The notes under the pieces were generated by a model. It was not told the DNA's origin. It did not search any database and saw nothing but the letters and a program-made list of their open reading frames with translations. Positions 15,990 through 61,860 of a stretch of DNA of 64,000 nucleotides are shown in pieces (the stretch's first letter is position 1; every line of letters starts with the position of its first letter). Both the position numbers and the translations under genes were made by a program. Origin of the DNA: Capitulum mitella (lineage: Eukaryota; Arthropoda; Thecostraca; Pollicipedomorpha; Pollicipedidae); assembly GCA_030062745.1 (NCBI GenBank), contig CP099849.1:9387767-9451766 (forward strand). Reading direction: 5' to 3'.

Positions 15990-17289
15990 ATGAAGCTGGT
16001 GAGTGGCATGGGCGGCGGCAAGCTACAGGGAATTTTTGAGATGGGGTTTTGTGTGTCGTATGTCTCGCCGAACAATTTGCGCTTAGAATGTTTTTCGTTC
16101 TGGTTGGACATGTCGCATTTTCATCATACGATTAGAATCTTTCATACAAATAATGGAGTAATGCATTCGTTAAACAAGTCACAAAATTGTTTCAGAATTG
16201 TTTTAAAAATTAAGTCTTAATTTTTCATCGACTAAAAAGCAGGTCGATGAAAAACTAAGCTGAAATCCTGACACCCTCCGCTTTCTTCAATAAAAGGCGA
16301 GAACTGTACTGACTTGGACTTTCCGTTTAAAAGTTGGTAATTCATTTCTAAACTAGTTATGTTCTGTGCTGCACGTGCCGATAACGTGCAAGTGATATTT
16401 TTCTTCCTTATCCATCCATGGGCAGGCACACGTGCCCACGCGTTGTATGAATGCTAGATGAACGCGTATTGTTTGAAGTGTAGCCATGACCTGTCCGTTT
16501 TTTTCAGTTCATTATCGCTGCCGTTCTGGCCCTGGCTTCTGCCGCGCCGTCTGATTCCGCCTACGAGCGTGAGATCATCGAGATTCTCAGACAGAACATC
16601 GACCACAACGACGACCACTCCTACCAGCAGTCGTAAGCAAATTTTTTGGATGTGACGTCTCAAAACTCTACGATTGCGCATGGCCATAGCAATTTTCCAC
16701 GGCTTTCCCATGTCTCCTGTTCGGAGGTATCTTATTTACAGCTGTTGCGTGGCGTCACGAGCGGGAACAAGGCGATGAAAGCTTTGGTCCACACAGGTCC
16801 GTACTGCGTGATGCCGACGGATGACTTAAGAATGTAACTCTCAATTAATGACATTTTTCGCCTCGTAGACATTCCGAGTCCGAGCTGGTAGACATTCCAC
16901 GCCATTGTTGCTCCTTGCATTTCAGTTTTGAGACGGAGAACGGCATCTCTGTGTCTGAGTCTGGCCAGCCGGAGGATGACGACAGCTACAGCGTGTCCGG
17001 CCAGTTCAGCTACACGGCTCCTGATGGCGTGACCTACACCGTTGTGTACACGGCCGGAGAGGACGGCTTCCAGCCGCAGGGTGACCACCTGCCCACCCCT
17101 GTGCCGACCGAGTACCCCACCCCCGAGGTGTCGGATGACGACGAGGAGGAGGAAACGTATGAGGCCGCTGCCGAGGAGGAGGAGGAAGAGGAAGAGGAAG
17201 AGGAGGAAGAGGAAGAGGAGGAAGCTGCCCCCGTCTACCAGCCGCGTTATGAGCGTGTGATCGTCGGTTACAGGCCTCGCAATAACTAG
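15990..17289 (+). CDS. RR-1 cuticle protein with acidic tail, copy C
   Basis: Exons 15,990-15,998, 16,508-16,632 and 16,926-17,289 encode 165 residues. The only notable change in the second exon is His for Gln in the DDHSYQQS segment before the chitin-binding domain. The Glu tract is an uninterrupted run of 17 (128-144), the purest of the five. The tail ends YRPRNN as in copy B. AATAAA lies at 17,435-17,440. Intron 1 is 509 bp; it contains a short inverted duplication around 16,225-16,260 (GACTAAAAAGC and GATGAAAAAC segments) not seen in the other copies. Expected role: secreted chitin-binding cuticle protein. Confidence 0.92.
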
Positions 17290-26408: not shown

Positions 26409-27060
26409 AGTAGTTCTCGCAATATCGAAAATTATTGAACGTATCGTCCACCACCAGCCTTACTCGTATTTCTTTCGTCATGACTTGTTTTATTCTCCCA
26501 ACATGGTTATCGCACACATCATTCAACCGAGACAGCCTTGACGGACGCGGACGACAGAATTTTACCCTCCATGAACCAAGGTGAAATTGCACTTCTAATC
26601 CTGACTGATCTTTCGAAATGTTTTGATGCAATTGATCACAAGGTACTTCTGACAAAGCTTAGACACTACAACATTGGCACGGAGTGGTTTACAAACTATC
26701 TCCATGGCCATACGCAACAAGTTCGTGTCCGAGACACCAGCGGTTCAGTCACCATCTCGTCCTCGCTCCCTAACGCTATTGATGTTCATCAAGGCACGTC
26801 ATCAGGACCAGTGCTGTTTTCCATCTTTTCAAATGACTTGTCACTTTGCTCTCAGGACGTAACGATTTACCAGTATTCTGACGATACACAGGTTTTGGTC
26901 AGAAGAAAAAAGCAGGACGTATACCAACTCATAGTTATACAGGCGAAGGTACTTAGCAACGTCTCCGACTGGTTCATATCCCATTCTATGAAAATCAATA
27001 CTGCCAGCGTTGGTTTTCACCCATGGCCGCTGCAGGTGACCATGGGATCGCGTGTTATGT
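26409..27060 (+). pseudogene. LINE reverse transcriptase domain, broken
   Basis: Two frames are needed: ISKIIERIVHHQPYSYFF up to a stop near 26,540, then an open frame to 27,197. Visible motifs are DLSKCFDAIDH (palm motif A), a degenerate VHQGTSSGPVLFSIF (motif B region) and YSDDTQVL (motif C, with Ser in place of the usual Ala). After KINTA the similarity fades. It is not a functional gene. Confidence 0.75.
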
Positions 27061-27123
27061 TCGTGAGATACTTTGGTGAAGTTTGTCGCAATGCCTGGTG
27101 GCTGTGCGGTCAACAGAACTCCC

Positions 27124-28418
27124 TTTACCCGCGCCCGACTGTCGGTCGGCGCCATGCACGCCCGACTGGGGGAAGCGGTTGGCCGCCCCCCCTCTAACTC
27201 ACGAACGGTTAATCGCACGATAAAAATAAGCACACCTTTGGAAAGCTCGTGACGAGAAGAGCTCGAAACTGGTCTCATTTTTAGTTTTAGATAATATATA
27301 AACCATTTACGCCCTATATATGTTTTCTCATAACCACCTGCATGAGACCGAGAAGCGACCTAGATCTCAATGGCTGTGAATAATAAAGTCTAGATAAAGG
27401 CACCAGCGGACAGGTAAAAGCCCGCAGATGTTGGTACACGTCTGATTTCTCTGAGTTTAGTATGTACGGAAACGTTGAGTTAAAGACATGGCGGTTTTCT
27501 CACCGCTGCACGGCGGGCGCGACAGACCAACGCGGTATGAAAAAAGGGAGCTAATTTTAGCGTTCTTTTGTTTCCGCGAAATATGCCATTCCAAGTGTCG
27601 TTTTTGATCCTTGTGGTTCCTGCGATAATTTCTCATGTTTAAATTTTGGGCAAAATAATGAGTTATCAATCTTCACAATTAGCGGAACTTTATTCGCAAA
27701 AGTCTGTTTATTCCCCCAAAAATTCGCATTATTTTCAGACGTTTTTAACTTCTTGGTATTAGTCGAAACTGTGTGAGCCATTCCTGCCATTTTTTTGGCC
27801 GATCTGAGTCATTCATCGCCGATTTTGATGACAGTGCATTTTGACTCATAACAGTTATTCGTGACCTGACCTCAGGTCAGTAGTCAAAGGTCATTGAAAC
27901 TTTGTCCATTGACGGAACACTGGGTGTCCGGATCTTCCCACGCTCAAAGCACTATAAAAAATCCGTCAATTTTCGAAACAAAACGACGACTTATGATGCA
28001 AACGGGCTTGGTCTTAGGTCAATGACCCTGACATTTTGGAAAAAACCGAGATAGCAGACTTGCTGCATTTATCAAAATCTCCAACCCTTTGAATTTTTAT
28101 CGTGATATCGTGTTTTGCAAAAAAAGGTACAGGGCGCTGAACTTTTTTAGACATATGTCCACTTGACCTGACCTAGGTTAGACACCTTTCTTGACCTCAG
28201 GTGAAAAAGTTGATACAAGGTGTGGAAATAATCAAGCAAATGGAACACAAAGTTTCGTGGCGCTGCGTTTGTTGTTCTTTTGTTGTTGTTCTCTTTTTGT
28301 TGTTCAACAAGAGAACAAGAACCAGATTTTTGTCTGGGATTGTTCGTTCTCTCGCAATCTCAGAGAAAACCTCAGGAGCTGGTCAACTGCCCCCCCCCCC
28401 CAGTCGGAGGGCGGAATA
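27124..28418. mobile_element. X2: second group-X element, nested in the LINE
   Basis: Starts CCCGCGCCCGACTGTCGGTCGG at about 27,128, after TTTA (a probable decayed TTAA), and ends near CAGTCGGAGGGCGG at 28,414. It aligns along its whole length with X1 (for example GAAACTGGTCTCATTTTTAGTTTTAG in both, near 27,266 and 1367). It is longer than X1 by about 70 bp because of a T/G-rich insertion near 28,274-28,345. No intact target duplication. No coding region. Confidence 0.75.
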
Positions 28419-36771: not shown

Positions 36772-36999
36772 GGCGGCCGCGCTCAGGTCATCTCCCGGGT
36801 CACCTTCCCCGAGAGTCGGACGAATACCCCCCGCGCGTCCGGCCCCGCAACGCTGCAGAGGCGGCCGCGCTCAGGTCATCTCCCGGGTCACCGTCCCCGA
36901 GAGTCGGACGAATACCCCCCCGCGCGTCCGGCCCCGCAACGCTGCAGAGGCGGCCGCGCTCAGGTCATCTCCCGGGTCACCTTCCCCGAGAGTCGGACG
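36772..36999. repeat. 88-89-bp GC-rich minisatellite, 2.6 copies
   Basis: Units start at 36,772, 36,860 and 36,949 with GGCGGCCGCGCTCAGGTCAT. The units differ by only a few bases. The + strand is open across the repeat, but the repeats fall in different frames, which argues against a protein. Confidence 0.85.
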
Positions 37000-38976: not shown

Positions 38977-41578
38977 TTATCCGTCCTTCAGCTCCCGCCA
39001 TCGGCGCTCCTGGTCCACCTTCTCCAGAATCGTGTAGAACTCGCTCGCCTCCATGTGCGTGACGAACGCGGCGCAGACGGCGTTCAGCGCGGCCATGATG
39101 CCCAACGGCCGGGCCAGGGGGCGCGAGAGTCGCCGCCAGACCGCCAGCCAGGCGCGGGGGTCCTCCACCAGGGCCGGCAGCGCGTACGTCATTCGCCGCT
39201 CGGCCAGCTGGAACATCGGCCACGTTACAGTGTGTACGTCATCCGCCGCTCGGCCAGCTGGAACATCGGCCACGTTACCGTGTGACGTCATCCGCCGCTC
39301 GGCCAGCTGGAACACCGGCCACTGCACAGTATGGCGTCATCCACCGCTCGGCCAGCTGGAACATCGGCCACGTTACAGCGTGTGACGTCATTCGCCGCTC
39401 GGCCAGCTGGAACATCGGCCACGTCACCGTGTGTGACGTCATCCGCCGCTCGACCAGCTGAAACAACGTCCACGTTACAAAGTCTGATGTCATTCACCGC
39501 TCGGCTACCTCGATCTAGGACGTCGTCAGCCATAGCTCTAACGTACATGGCGTAATGTTGCCCCTGGCCCAGGACAAGTCACGTGGTTTACCGCGTTCAG
39601 ACGGGCTCGTGTGACGTCATGCGTCGCCGGGAGACTGATCAATAGGTGATGCTATCTGCCGTCCAATCCCCCGAGCCGGAGATTGCCGAACGGACGCCTG
39701 GCATACAGACGCATTGGGAGCACACCGTCCCACTACAGGGAAACGTCCCAGCTCCAAATCTGCCCACTCCTCGATCACAAAGGCGTTTTTATATCATCTG
39801 CCGTCTGATCATCCGCCAATCAGCACCGAGCAACCACGCCGGGGTGCTCTGTGCGCCGCACTCAGGAAGGACATTTCCATTAATCGCCCACAATACTGGC
39901 CGCGCCACGGCCCATCCGGCCAGAGTCAGAAAAACTCGAATGGTTTGCAGCGTGTTAGCCAGAGGACAGGGAAGGAAACATCCATAGCACCGGACGACGT
40001 CCCACAGCGATCACGATCAGAACATCGGTGGCCGTGACTCTGACATGAAGTGTGCGGTGGGTCGTCTGCTCGGAAATCGGCCGGCACTGCGTTTTGGTAA
40101 ACCGGTACGACAAGATAAAAGTGCTTCAGCGACCAAAATATGTGAATCTAAGGTATCTCAGCTGTCAAAACCAGCCTAAGCCTCGCAGTTTGTGTGTAAA
40201 TAAGCTACTCAGGGTAAAGGCTGTGCAACATAAGCATAAACGAAGAAAAGCGGGTTATTACAAATCAGGCAAACTACCTTTATCAGAACAGACAAGTACA
40301 CAGTCCGTAATGAGGCCACTTACTCATCTCCGTAACATTAACGACGCACAATCAATCGCCCAAACTATTGGCCAAAGCTTTGATCCTTGCGATTACTTCA
40401 CGAACACGACGCGTCCTACATCCAATGACGCTAAGTAAAGTTCGGCACACCCACATCCACTCTCAATGGGTCCACGATTCCCTTGGTGCTGCACTTACAT
40501 GAAAGTTAGAGATGGTTGCCATGGCTACTGGCAAGCCTAGGGAGAAGCCCAGCTGAATGGCCACTGCTCGCATGTTCACACAAACTGGGCAGGTGGTCTC
40601 GAACACGAGCAGGTCGCGAGTCACAAACTGCAACATACCACAGGCGTCGGTACCGGAACACTGCTCGTTTGCTGAGGAACCAAAGGCCACTGAACAAAAA
40701 TGCCAGATGTGGATTAGGATTTGAATAAAACGTGAAGGTTCACATGTAACTAACACAATCAATAAAACTGCTAGACTCCATTCTTCAGAAAAAAGCCTGG
40801 TAAGATCAATTCAAAATGAAAAAAATCAGTTTCTTGAACTCACGACCAACATAAATATCTCTGAGTTACACCACCAATGAATTCAGGTCCGCAGTCCCGA
40901 AAAAAACCGAGTCGGCACAGCAGACCTCTCCTGGAGAACCCACGTCGACTGAGGCGCGCCCGGGCGCCGCCAGGCTCACCAGCTGGTGCGTGACCCCCAC
41001 GCTGGCCGCCGGGATGGCCATCACTGGCAGGTGTGACGACACCAGGCCGTAGGAGCGCAGCTTCAGCACACTCCGGTAGTGCGAGGTGACCACCATGCCA
41101 CAAGCAGCTGCCAAGGCTGCCAGGCCGATCGTGCCATACCGGAGGAACAGCCTGCAGCATAGAGAAACACCACATCAGGCATCTGACAGCACAACTGACT
41201 GGTGCAAGGGCAGAAAGCAGCTGATTATGTGGCGCTTTGTAAATGGTGACAAACAGATGTCATGCAATGAGATAGCATGAATGAAATTTGAGTTCTGGGC
41301 AGCTCTTGACAACCTTTGCACCATAATTAAAAAAAAAATATTTCTTTAAATATATATCCCCTTCCATCCAACATACTTGTGCATTGGATAACCTGGCTGG
41401 GTCTTTAGTTCCGTTTTGGAATCATTATCAGGAAAATGGGTTCCCTTCAGAACAGATTGATCTGAAAAAGAAAACACAGGGGCCAGGTCAGGGTATGGAG
41501 GTAGTTCAAGTTGAATGTTCCTTCTGCCGGCGGCAATACAGAGTGTGAGCAGGAGCGTGTGGATGCGTTGGTTCCCAA

Positions 41579-41619
<41 letters not shown>

Positions 41620-42357
41620 GGAAAAAATTCAAGAGCCTTAATATCAAAAACACAATGAGTATCACTTTCACTTTCGTCTTCGACTTCCTTGCTTCTTTGG
41701 CCTGGGATAAAATCCTTCACAAAACGAACAGGACTGTAATGAAATATTAATTCACATCTAACTCTCCACTTTATAACCAAAAACAATTCATTCATCAAAT
41801 TCATCAATGAAGATGGTTTTGATGACAAATGGGCAGTTTATCCACCACAGTGACCCTGTTTTTAGACATCTGTGCACATTTCACTTTACTGGACAAAATC
41901 AAAGACAGCTTAGCCAGCTGCCCTAAGCCTCAGGCACAATTAGAAATACAGCAAAACACTCAGTTATGACATCAGACTTGCTTCTTACTGAATAAAGACA
42001 GTCATTTGCTTGCAGAGTTGCAAATTTGTGAACATAGCTATAATGAAGCTTTCTGGTGGGAACACAAGATCAAACTTTTGGAGCATAACATGTTTCCAGA
42101 ACACATATTTGTTGGTATTCTTCAACATCAAAAAAACAACACCTTTTCCAATCCTGGTCTAAAATGAACCTGTCCTAGCAGGACAAGGCCAGATTAGAAG
42201 TATCTTTGTTCATAGCTAAATGGTAATCGTATTCACTACTATTAGTTAAGTCTGTAGCTTACGTGCCAGATTTTGGAGTCCATTCTTCTATCACCTTTAT
42301 TTGGTGCTGATATGCTTCCTCTTCACTAAGCTGGTGAGACTTGTCATTAACATCCAT
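38977..42357 (-). CDS. TMEM126: TMEM126-family mitochondrial membrane protein
   Basis: The exons I can place, on the - strand, are 42,357-42,263 (MDVNDKSHQLSEEEAYQHQ...), 41,461-41,377, 41,151-40,980, 40,627-40,499 and 39,207-38,977 (stop TAA). Exons 2 to 5 join in phase. The first does not join exon 2 in phase, so a small exon is missing or a splice site is misplaced. Family features: a hydrophobic stretch after LFLRYGTIGLAALAAACGM, the LPVMAIPAASVGVTHQL segment, TTCPVCVNMRAVAIQLGF, then LAERRMTYALP and a C-terminal segment with SRPLARPLGIMAALNAVCAA. TMEM126 proteins are inner-membrane factors of respiratory complex I assembly. The last intron ends in tandem copies of its own acceptor. No poly(A) signal was found downstream. 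Confidence 0.8.
39186..39515 (-). repeat. 49-51-bp minisatellite made from a TMEM126 splice acceptor and exon start
   Basis: Unit landmarks (CGCCGCTCGG on the + strand) lie at 39,194, 39,244, 39,293, 39,342, 39,393, 39,444 and 39,495. The lowest one is the true start of the last TMEM126 exon. On the - strand each unit reads TGGCCGATGTTCCAG then CTGGCCGAGCGGCGRATGAC, so it contains about 20 bases of intron end with the acceptor and about 30 bases of exon. The second unit would encode LAERRMTYTL and then a stop. Confidence 0.85.
41581..41618. repeat. Poly(T) run of 38
   Basis: Lies in the first TMEM126 intron region (poly(A) in gene sense). It may be a decayed retroposed tail or a simple repeat. 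Confidence 0.8.
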
Positions 42358-44025
42358 TTTTGAAATTTAGTATTATCTGGGGCACCAGCAATTACATTTG
42401 GAACCTCTTGCATCCAGTCCTGGGCAAAAATAATAGCTGTTTGAACATAATATGTTGTGCTACAACAGCACTGAATGGATGATGACTGTCCTGGTTTTCC
42501 TCATATCCTGTCACCTTCATTAATTGGGCATTGGGCACAAACACAGCACATGTTTCTAAAATGACTGAGCTTATTTGTGACAGCCTATCTGTAATGATAG
42601 GAAAATGATGTAATGCTGCATACAACACCAAATACAATTTAAGGAGATATGCAATCCAATAAAAAAAACAATATTTCCACAGTGCAGAGCTAAGGGCCAA
42701 ATGCACCTGCTCTTTGACATTTTTAATGGAGCAGCAGTGGCCTAAGACCCTGTTATTACTTCATATTCATGTGGATTTTTGTCATGTGGATGCATCATGT
42801 GAATTGTTGTCAAAATATTCACAAAAATTCTGCAGAACAACACAAAATGCCCGGCTTTGAACCATAAAATAAACAGATATGTTGCATCAGCTTTTGCATG
42901 AAAACAGAGTTAAAGATTACATTTGCAGTAATCCATCAAGAGAGTTTGTCTCAAACCACTACTAGTCACTCAAAAAAATTGGGCAGACTGCCTCAACCAG
43001 CAAGTGTGCTGAATATTCTGCTGGTATACATTTAATTCTGCTCCTTAACTGTCCATAAAACACTCTGCATGCCCATCAACAAAATAATAATTTGTTTGAA
43101 ACTGACAGCTGAAAGGATGTGGGGAGGTGCGAACTGGACGAAAATAAGTGAAAACAACTGGTTCCGAAAATGATCCAATAATATCAATTGTGATCACTAT
43201 TCAGCTATGAGTAAACTGCTAGGAACTATTTGTTGCGAGCTAGGACACAAAGCCTCTAGGGTTAAGGCATCCACATCTCGATAATCAGACTTCTGGGGCT
43301 TTGGTTCAATCAGCTGCCCGCGAGTTGCCCGCAGTCAAGAAATGCAACGATGTTCGTGCGCAAGAAATGATCCAGGAGCGCCATAACTGCATTTTGTACT
43401 TAATGGTGTGTTGTATTAATTTTTAGACCACTATTGATAAGTACAAACCGTATTGATTATATCCAAATACGTGCTATCACTATCAAAAAAAACCGCTTTA
43501 AAATAAAATGAACAAAGGTTGTGCATAATTGAAAAATTGTTCCACACATTTGTATAATTTTTACACCTAGATTATCTTGAATTTCAGCGTTGGAAAATAA
43601 AGACTTTCCATTCGCATATTATGCTATCACTTGATTTGTGGAGCGCTGATCGTGGATTTCACAAAGGGATAAGACTGGTAAGACACATCATTTGCAAGCA
43701 GCCTTCCGGTATGTCTTTTGCCTGGTCTCGTTGGTTGATTTCATGAGAAAAAAGAACAAGAAAGGGGTTTTCAGGGAATTACGAGAAAGCCGACCCTAGC
43801 GTCTAGTGTGAAAGAGTGTTTTGTGCTTGTAATCATGAATTTAACTGAGCACTGGCAGCGTAACACGGATGCGAGACAGTCTGACAATCCGTGTGGCTCA
43901 GGAAGACGGGCGAAAAGGGAGTAGGCAGTGAAAATTAATTAAACTGACGCCTCGCGTTAAAATAATTCAAAGTGAGAAGTGTTTCCGGCCAAATTCAGTG
44001 TTTATCGAATCGGACGTGTTCTGTT
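42358..44025. other. No gene seen
   Basis: AT-rich DNA upstream of the first placed TMEM126 exon, with no recognisable coding region or repeat family. Confidence 0.5.
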
Positions 44026-51774: not shown

Positions 51775-52946
51775 GCTACAAGGGCATCCCAAAGCCATAG
51801 CCCTGGTCATTCAGGCAAACAATCAAGACAATCTTTGCAGTGGCCACCATGCCCATATGTCCACATTGGATACAAAATCATGTACGTTGCAAAGTTCTTT
51901 TGACGTTTTAAAGATATGCCACGTTGGTTAAGCTAAATGGTATGTAACCATGACAACGATGCCAAACAGTCCCGCACACTCACGTGTCACAGCTTGCACA
52001 GTACCATCCGCCGGAGGCAACTGACATGTAGTCCAGTTCACACGCACACGCGCATACACACCGCGGGATGTGAGCCCAGCTTTGTGCTTCGACGACATTG
52101 TACTTCGACGACATCTGACATTGTTTTTTCGGCGATCGAGAGGCACAATTACGAGAGTATGATTGTTGTGCGGGGCCCAGAGTTAGTTGTCACGTGGGTA
52201 GTTTATGAATAAACAGACAATCATTACGTATGTCTGGGTTATGGTACAAGACTGCCATTGCGAAGCACAACGAAACATGAGGAAATATGACAGCTGACCG
52301 TTCAGTCGTTACAGCGCAGAATAATAGGAATGCCAGGATCCATACGTTAGAACAAATATCAAATCTCTGTAAATGCTTCGCCGATTTAATTTAGAGTGCA
52401 TTTATTAGCCAGCTTAGGTGCGGTCTTCATGGAAGCCTACTGGATGGACCAACGGCAGGCCAGCCATCAGAAGAGAGCGCGGGATCTCCGTGCCGGACGA
52501 GCACTCAGACATCGTCCCACTGAACTCTCACAGCCGGAGATCGGCGGCATTGATTACTCAGGCGCCGCGGAGTTCCGTCAGAACAGAGCCGTGCTCAGCA
52601 GGCCGGCACGGCGACCGGCCAAACGCTACGTCCCAACCCGGACGTGCTTTTTGCACGGCGCAAACTCGCCTTCCACGCGACGCTGAGCGGAACACTGCGC
52701 CACGTTCTGCGCCTCCGGACGCCCTGTGACGGCCTCTGGAGGTCCGTGACTCTGTCGACCTGGGCCCGCCGTCGGGCGACTGGCGGCGCCCGTGCGGTGG
52801 CGCTATAATTACCGACGGCACGCAGCGTGGGGTGACGTCCAGTCCCGGCGGCCGATTTAGTGGCCACGATCGCCCTGACCGCGCTGACGTCACCAGACGC
52901 GCGGCTCCGGCGGACAGGGAGCCGCTGTCACACGGCGCCGGCGGTA
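51775..52946. other. Spacer and CpG-rich island, no assigned gene
   Basis: 52,430-52,940 is GC- and CpG-rich with overlapping open frames in several registers. No product is recognised. Confidence 0.4.
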
Positions 52947-53193
52947 GACGGAGGGCCACTGTTATACGGCCCCGGTAGACGGAGGGCCACTGTTATACGG
53001 CCCCGACGGACGGAGGGCCGCTGTTATACGGCCCCAACGGATGGAGGGTCACTGTTATACGGCCCCGGTAGACGGAGGGCCGCTGTTATACGGCCCCGGT
53101 AGACGGAGGGCCGCTGTCATACGGCCCCGAGGGACGGAGGGCCACTGTTATACGGCCCCGACGGACGGAGGGCCACTGTTATACGGCCTCGAG
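52947..53193. repeat. 31-bp minisatellite, 8 copies
   Basis: Units start at 52,947, 52,978, 53,009, 53,040, 53,071, 53,102, 53,133 and 53,164, exactly 31 bp apart. The core is GACGGAGGGCC then CTGTTATACGGCCCC. Two + strand frames are open across most of the array, and because 31 is not a multiple of 3 they read as a 31-residue super-repeat. Confidence 0.9.
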
Positions 53194-60197: not shown

Positions 60198-61416
60198 TGA
60201 AATTTGGAAAATGGTAATTTAAGAATCGTTTTATCTTTATACGATCTGACATGACCCGACATGACCCTAAATGTATGGGGCTGTTCCAGGACAACGTTAA
60301 ACACTGGAATTCCTTCACCTTGTGTAAGAAATCGTTCATTGTTGATTTCACCACCATGCCGGTATTCTTCCGTAAGCTATGAATGATTACTCACTTGACA
60401 TATGCTGAACTCATACGATTAATTCCACGATGATGTGCAGCTCGTTTTAAAACCTCAGACATGTTGCCTGTTCACTTACGCATAGTACCAACCAAGGTCG
60501 CACAGGTCCCACGTCCCAACCACACAACGTCCAAATATCTCAGAATGCAGCTGCACCTGACAGAACAATTTTCCTTCGATTCGTGCCGCCTGCATTTGCC
60601 ATAGTTAATGGAAAAAGAAGATAAACATTTCAGCTCGACACCAAGGTTTATCAAATCTCTGAATGCCTGTGGCATTTTAAATGCCCCGAATAATAGCAGG
60701 CATAGTTGAAATCCTTTTTCTTCGTGGCGAAATGCAAAAAAAAGATCACGACGGCATTTGAATGCTATTTCAAGAGGTATAGATATGACGTGATGCAGTG
60801 ATATGACATGATAAGGTAGACCGTATTATGAACGAACAAACAAACAAGCAAAAATGAATACGATCAAACTGTTCAGCCCAAACCCAGACTGTTAGTCGTC
60901 GTCCCCTTTCCATGTCGAACCACGGGAACTCACACATTATTTCCATCCAACCATCGCAAAAAAGAAAACGGAACCGACTGTGCTGGTAGTTTTCCGAGCA
61001 GCCATGCTATTGACGGAGGAAGTCCACCAATGATTGTATCCTGGAAACCTAAGTAACCCCATCTTGCGAGGGTTCAAATTTACGCCACGCGCTGGCCCGA
61101 CAAGAAACAGGATCCGAGCTGTGGGGGAGGAGGGAAATCACCCTCGTCCCGCTCCTCAGTTCCGGTTATCCCCAGCGCGGGCGTAGGCACGGCTGGCGTC
61201 CCGGCCTCCGCTCCAGGTGCTGGCCATCTCGTGCGGCGGTCGTGACGCACCACGCCGCCAGGATTGCCCCGGGCGGATATGCAGACAGATAAAATTAATG
61301 GCCCCATTCGGGGGATTAGTCGGCCAGATAGGCGTGCTGATAAGAGCGCGCCGCGCCACGCCTCGCCGCGCCTGACGCCTGACACAGGTGGCCTGACCGA
61401 TCGGGGTCGACGCGTT
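60198..61416. other. No gene seen
   Basis: 61,080-61,400 is GC-rich; nothing is recognised. Confidence 0.45.
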
Positions 61417-61860
61417 CACGTGGTCTGATGGAGAATCATAAACTGGTCAGCTACAGCAGTGCCCACCTGGTGTGATGGGGAGTCATGAAATGGCCGCCTG
61501 TGACGGCGTCCACCTGGTCTAACGGAGAATCGTGAACTGGTCAACGACAGTAGCGTCCACCTGGTGTGATGGGGAATTATGAACTGGCTGACTGTATCGG
61601 GGTCCACCTGGCCTGATGGACAATCATGAACTGGTCAACTGTAGCAGTGTGATGGGGAATGTGATGGGGAATCGTGAACTGACGAACTGTCACGGGTTCC
61701 GCCCGGTGTGATTGGGAATCATAAACCGTTCAACGGACGATGACGGTGACTAACTGAGGTGATGGAAAATCAGACACTGGTTTACTGTAGCAGTTGCTGA
61801 TGGAGAATCACTGAATGGCCAATTGCCACTGGATGTGATAGATGGCGAATCGTGAACTGA
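61417..61860. repeat. 47-bp minisatellite, degenerating to the right
   Basis: Landmarks CACSTGGTSTGATGG lie at 61,417, 61,464, 61,511, 61,558 and 61,605, exactly 47 bp apart. Further units to about 61,860 contain deletions. Unit core: GAATCATGAACTGGTCAACTG. Confidence 0.8.

Follow-up and report, generated by a model that had tools for sequence, protein, structure and literature searches.

The TMEM126 gene model

Does a minisatellite that adjoins a coding exon, and carries copies of the start of that exon, take part in the splicing of its host gene, or is it merely tolerated there? We asked this question for a 64-kb stretch of the Capitulum mitella genome (the whole stretch of DNA analysed, called the window below), in which six tandem units of 49–51 bp (minus strand, 39507–39208, here numbered U0 to U5) run right up to the acceptor predicted for the final exon of TMEM126.

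The predicted gene is encoded on the minus strand. The last exon, exon 5 (38977–39207), has 76 codons and a stop; it is preceded by exon 4 (40499–40627, ending in CAT followed by gtaagt, phase 0) and exon 3 (40980–41151, ending in CTG followed by gtgagc, phase 0), the boundaries of both being chosen by eye so as to agree with phase and with the match to the family, and by the probable coding part of exon 2 (42263–42357), which has its start codon at 42357 and its donor at 42262. The exon 2 donor was picked by eye among five phase-compatible donors between 41151 and 50000, and its phase is thus not independent evidence. The predicted exons 2–5 joined (208 aa) have an intact reading frame and match the Pfam family TMEM126 (PF07114) over profile positions 12–176 of 181 with 77.5 bits (E = 1.1e-21), above the curated cut-off of 25 bits, which bears out the assignment of the gene to TMEM126 in the original prediction. 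Exons 3–5 joined score 73 bits (E = 2.6e-20), and it is the addition of candidate exon 2 that moves the start of the match from profile position 21 to 12. Exon 5 by itself has no Pfam match at E-values up to 1; the family match appears only when it is joined to exons 3 and 4. Among solved structures there was no TMEM126 match, the one match (E = 0.17) being to a deoxyhypusine synthase.

The start of exon 5 is of particular importance here. The exon opens in phase 0 at CTG GCC. When its first ten residues are removed, the match of exons 3–5 drops from 73 to 54.1 bits, and when nine in-frame upstream residues are added it drops to 58.9 bits (a loss of about 14 bits). What we take to be the human TMEM126A sequence aligns without gaps across the exon 4/5 junction (LAARYQSALLP with LAERRMTYALP). 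Judged from these comparisons, exon 5 most likely begins at CTGGCC, and this start is most likely ancestral to the family. About 19 bits of the family match rest on those ten residues, so the exon start is the source and the repeats are its copies. An error in the gene model or assembly, with the true start of the last exon at another place or the array put together wrongly, seems very improbable to us: the predicted true acceptor is mediocre and the exon boundaries were set by eye, but phase and family match fit the exon 4/5 junction, and the units differ from each other, unlike simple assembly stutter.

The 5' part of the predicted gene also stands out in base composition. In the two 1-kb bins of 41001–43000 the observed/expected ratio of CpG is 0.42 and 0.09 (0.09 in 42001–43000), compared with 0.68–1.31 in the other bins, and no other part of the window is strongly depleted in CpG; ratios of 0.2 or lower were found in two out of 190 1-kb bins of a 190-kb genome sample. 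The depletion suggests a live, germline-methylated gene, and the pattern resembles gene-body methylation that is confined, in the germline, to a small number of genes.

Anatomy of the array

Tandem Repeats Finder (TRF) reports the array at 39178–39505 (period 51, 6.5 copies, 84% matches, score 446), and with six units of 49–51 bp it is a minisatellite in the usual sense (units of roughly 10–100 bp in several copies). On the minus strand, AG dinucleotides end at 39458 (TTTCAG, preceding U1) and at 39407, 39356, 39307, 39258 and 39208 (TTCCAG, preceding U2, U3, U4, U5 and exon 5, respectively), with spacings of 51, 51, 49, 49 and 50; the AG ending at 39208 is the predicted true acceptor of exon 5. 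Each of the full units, i.e. U1 (39407–39457, 51 bp), U2 (39356–39406, 51 bp), U3 (39307–39355, 49 bp; the most diverged of the five), U4 (39258–39306, 49 bp) and U5 (39208–39257, 50 bp, the nearest to the exon), is made up of roughly the first 30 bp of exon 5, joined to some 20 bp from the end of the intron that include TTCCAG. U5 matches exon 5 at 27 of 30 bases without gaps, and U2 at 29 of 30 bases with one inserted base. The homology of both of these best-matching units to the exon stops at 30 bp, and the following intron end of about 20 bp finishes with TTCCAG. Since five units are preceded by CAG/CTGG and the array ends at exon 5, the array can be described as a splice-site minisatellite, with splice-site sequence at an exon edge.

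The first 21 bases of exon 5 occur six times within three mismatches (the exon and five copies), compared with 0.00 expected from 100 shuffles. When the 64-kb window was searched by nhmmer with a profile built from the units, the matches above the inclusion threshold were those six, as follows from the construction of the profile, plus the start of exon 5 (39207–39184, E = 1.9e-5), and there were no others. The original prediction held that six extra units each carry an acceptor and the exon start; five do, but the uppermost unit U0 (39458–39507, placed by nhmmer and alignment) is degenerate, with 38–41 identical positions out of 49–51 aligned to the other units and no CTGG start. The left flank of U0 was ruled out as a further diverged copy of the intron end, as 678 of 2000 shuffled sequences scored at least as high in the local alignment. 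Thirteen of the 51 alignment columns vary among U1–U5, nine of them in columns 22–35, where exon-derived and intron-derived sequence meet within the unit (manual count).

A search of the 477-Mb genome reported one place for the array DNA (one candidate scored, in a search that passes over very common words) and one match for exon 5 (three candidates scored). Because each of them matched one genomic place, the array is unlike a dispersed satellite that landed at TMEM126; such a satellite as supplier of the exon start is thought unlikely, given the one genomic place reported and the match of the exon start to the protein family. The proposal that the array derives from the acceptor and the exon start of its host gene is supported by the alignment of units with the exon and by this family match.

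Tandem repeats are frequent in this genome. TRF gave 18 rows, some of them overlapping, for the 190-kb genome sample (period at least 20, at least three copies), and these take up 2.6% of its bases; the genome is thus minisatellite-rich, and some arrays will touch exon edges by chance. Further minisatellites in the window are found at 36772–36999, 52945–53192 and 61412–61643 (units of 89, 31 and 47 bp, respectively). On a larger scale, a cuticle-protein exon is present in five very similar tandem copies (by eye; 6016–32418, plus strand) with acidic tails of varying length: four plus-strand ORFs out of ten scanned match Chitin_bind_4 with 71.3–72.9 bits, as is indicative of an arthropod, and the fifth similar cuticle-type ORF (16852–17286) was recognized by eye outside the Pfam scan. 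One of the ten ORFs scanned contains a reverse-transcriptase fragment (RVT_1, E = 8.2e-16; 26484–27194, plus strand); the other five are without a match.

The units also contain the motif TGACGTCA, which we take to be the CRE palindrome, and an array of bZIP/CRE sites could serve as an intronic enhancer. The motif is found in three units (U1, U2 and U4) and once more at 39612–39619, and it occurs 11 times in the window (four of them in 39283–39619), compared with 1.35 on average, and 5 at most, in 100 shuffles. It is, however, common in the genome anyway (18 occurrences in the 190-kb sample), absent from the other three units, and different from exon 5's own TGACGTAC by a one-base insertion; we regard an enhancer as very unlikely.

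Predicted products of splicing within the array

Splicing to the acceptors before 39457 (U1), 39406 (U2), 39355 (U3) and 39257 (U5) is predicted to add 60, 43, 26 and 10 residues, respectively, followed by a stop. The U5 product, LAERRMTYTL and a stop, had been given correctly in the original prediction and would truncate the protein. Outcomes are not restricted to full-length or truncated forms as had been envisaged, however: four of the five upstream choices do lead to early stops, but splicing before 39306 (U4) gives an in-frame insertion, with a predicted product that is 33 residues longer, meets no stop and keeps the complete C-terminus. In the truncated forms the final hydrophobic stretch (Kyte–Doolittle; about residues 161–193 of the canonical prediction) is missing. 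Pfam scores are 73 bits for the canonical exons 3–5, 60.5 for the in-frame U4 form (in which the best-scoring stretch stops within the first copy and leaves the C-terminus unjoined to the match), 55.7 and 51.8 for the U5 and U1 forms (the truncated forms covered by this comparison) and 47.6 for exons 3–4 alone.

Nonsense-mediated decay of such transcripts had also been suggested. Under the exon-junction-dependent rule, stops within the last exon do not trigger decay, and because all early stops (from U1, U2, U3 and U5) would fall in the last exon, decay by this route is not expected. The longer 3' UTR of the truncated forms could still have an effect.

Strength of the candidate acceptors

The acceptors were scored with a rough matrix written from consensus values, using as yardsticks the acceptors of TMEM126 exons 3 and 4 alone, as patterns for cuticle-gene acceptors found none. 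The true acceptor scores −0.1 and the five copies −0.2 to 0.7, compared with 5.5 for the exon 3 acceptor and 0.6 for the exon 4 acceptor. On the same matrix the true acceptor is at the 64th percentile of 3364 YAG sites, and the six array acceptors range from the 63rd to the 75th. The highest score of the six belongs to the acceptor before U1 (39457; TTGTTTCAG), which is also the first copy reached from upstream; in a ranking of 62 AGs of intron 4 (from 40 bases past the donor) it comes 6th and the true acceptor 15th. A branch-like motif, GTAAC or GTGAC, is seen roughly 18 bp upstream of five of the six acceptors (by eye, against the branch consensus); the one without it lies at the end of U3 and is the acceptor of the in-frame unit U4. 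RNA structure that masks the upstream acceptors was considered and rejected, the predicted pairing being highest at the true acceptor (0.93), although the array folds somewhat better than its shuffles (z = −1.89, five out of 100 as good).

Because the six acceptors are alike and mediocre, the sequence is silent on which of them is used, and heavy use of decoys would be as compatible with it as none. Unit choice could set the shares of full-length, truncated and +33-aa TMEM126, with unit number tuning dosage. For such a device one may cite that five upstream acceptors share nearly the core of the true site, that four of them give early stops without the last hydrophobic stretch and one an in-frame product, that most acceptors have a branch-like motif, and that the concentration of variable columns at the join inside the unit means that the exon-start and acceptor parts vary less. 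But the units of a minisatellite can also be kept alike by homogenization, the one acceptor that has no branch-like motif is that of the in-frame unit, and the sequence carries no sign of regulation. We consider the device unlikely; regulated unit choice is possible but unsupported, and the switch between full-length and truncated protein proposed originally finds no support in acceptor contexts that are nearly identical and mediocre. Similarly improbable, in our view, is that the decoys are used often and simply lower functional TMEM126 in this allele, the repeat being mildly harmful and drifting or segregating. The acceptor scores, which do not favour the true site, fit this possibility, but the reading frame of the predicted exons 2–5 is intact.

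Origin of the array and comparison with known systems

The explanation we favour, and think moderately probable, is that of an exon-edge minisatellite that is most likely tolerated: the exon-proximal acceptor would make most of the functional mRNA, and the upstream copies would be weak decoys. The array may have begun as a short tandem duplication across the TMEM126 intron 4/exon 5 junction, including about 20 bp of intron end and about 30 bp of exon start. Amplification of this duplication would have produced the six-unit minisatellite, wholly within the intron and ending at an intact exon; this history is one that we infer from the observed anatomy. Placed upstream as they are, the copies leave exon 5 itself and its reading frame undamaged. 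Use of the weak upstream acceptors would presumably be low and unregulated, as noise, and the array itself would be a tolerated by-product of a minisatellite-rich genome.

In tandem (NAGNAG-type) alternative acceptors, several acceptors compete for one exon. The TMEM126 array is alike in having competing acceptors, but these are spaced by about 50 bp and each unit has its own upstream context. The nearest precedent known to us is the splice-donor minisatellite of human IFI6 (6-16, G1P3), reportedly described by Turri, Cuin and Porter in 1995. The IFI6 minisatellite is reported to supply several splice donor sites and to give alternative products (PMC4526556). The likeness is that minisatellite units supply several splice sites; the differences are that IFI6 has donors with reported use in mRNA, whereas the TMEM126 array has acceptors together with an exon start, is known from DNA alone, and leads to an early stop for four of five upstream choices. 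The amplification of exon boundaries had been called rarely described, which holds in part, given this published case of repeated donors. No precedent for a minisatellite of acceptors was found among titles and opening lines of abstracts, mostly of papers outside subscription; PMC3039753 and PMC2915984, in which the term minisatellite appears along with splice-site terms, may bear on the question. Splice-site sequence is also multiplied by tandem duplication in intron gain, in which a duplicated AGGT forms both donor and acceptor (PMC3443670). The TMEM126 array differs in that it makes no new intron: by eye, there is no AGGT within U1–U5 and only one at the left edge of U0.

Implications

The TMEM126 array shows that a minisatellite can arise from the edge of a coding exon without breaking the exon. 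It also offers a clean, naturally occurring example of several near-identical acceptors that follow one another about 50 bp apart with the same flanks, from which one could learn how the spliceosome selects one of several equal sites. A more speculative possibility, to which we give little credence, is that the amplified acceptor copies compete with the original, such that the gain or loss of units of 49–51 bp shifts the chance of truncation and alters which of the units are in frame with the C-terminus, a splicing rheostat set by unit number. If this were true, the isoform output of TMEM126 could evolve quickly through repeat mutation.
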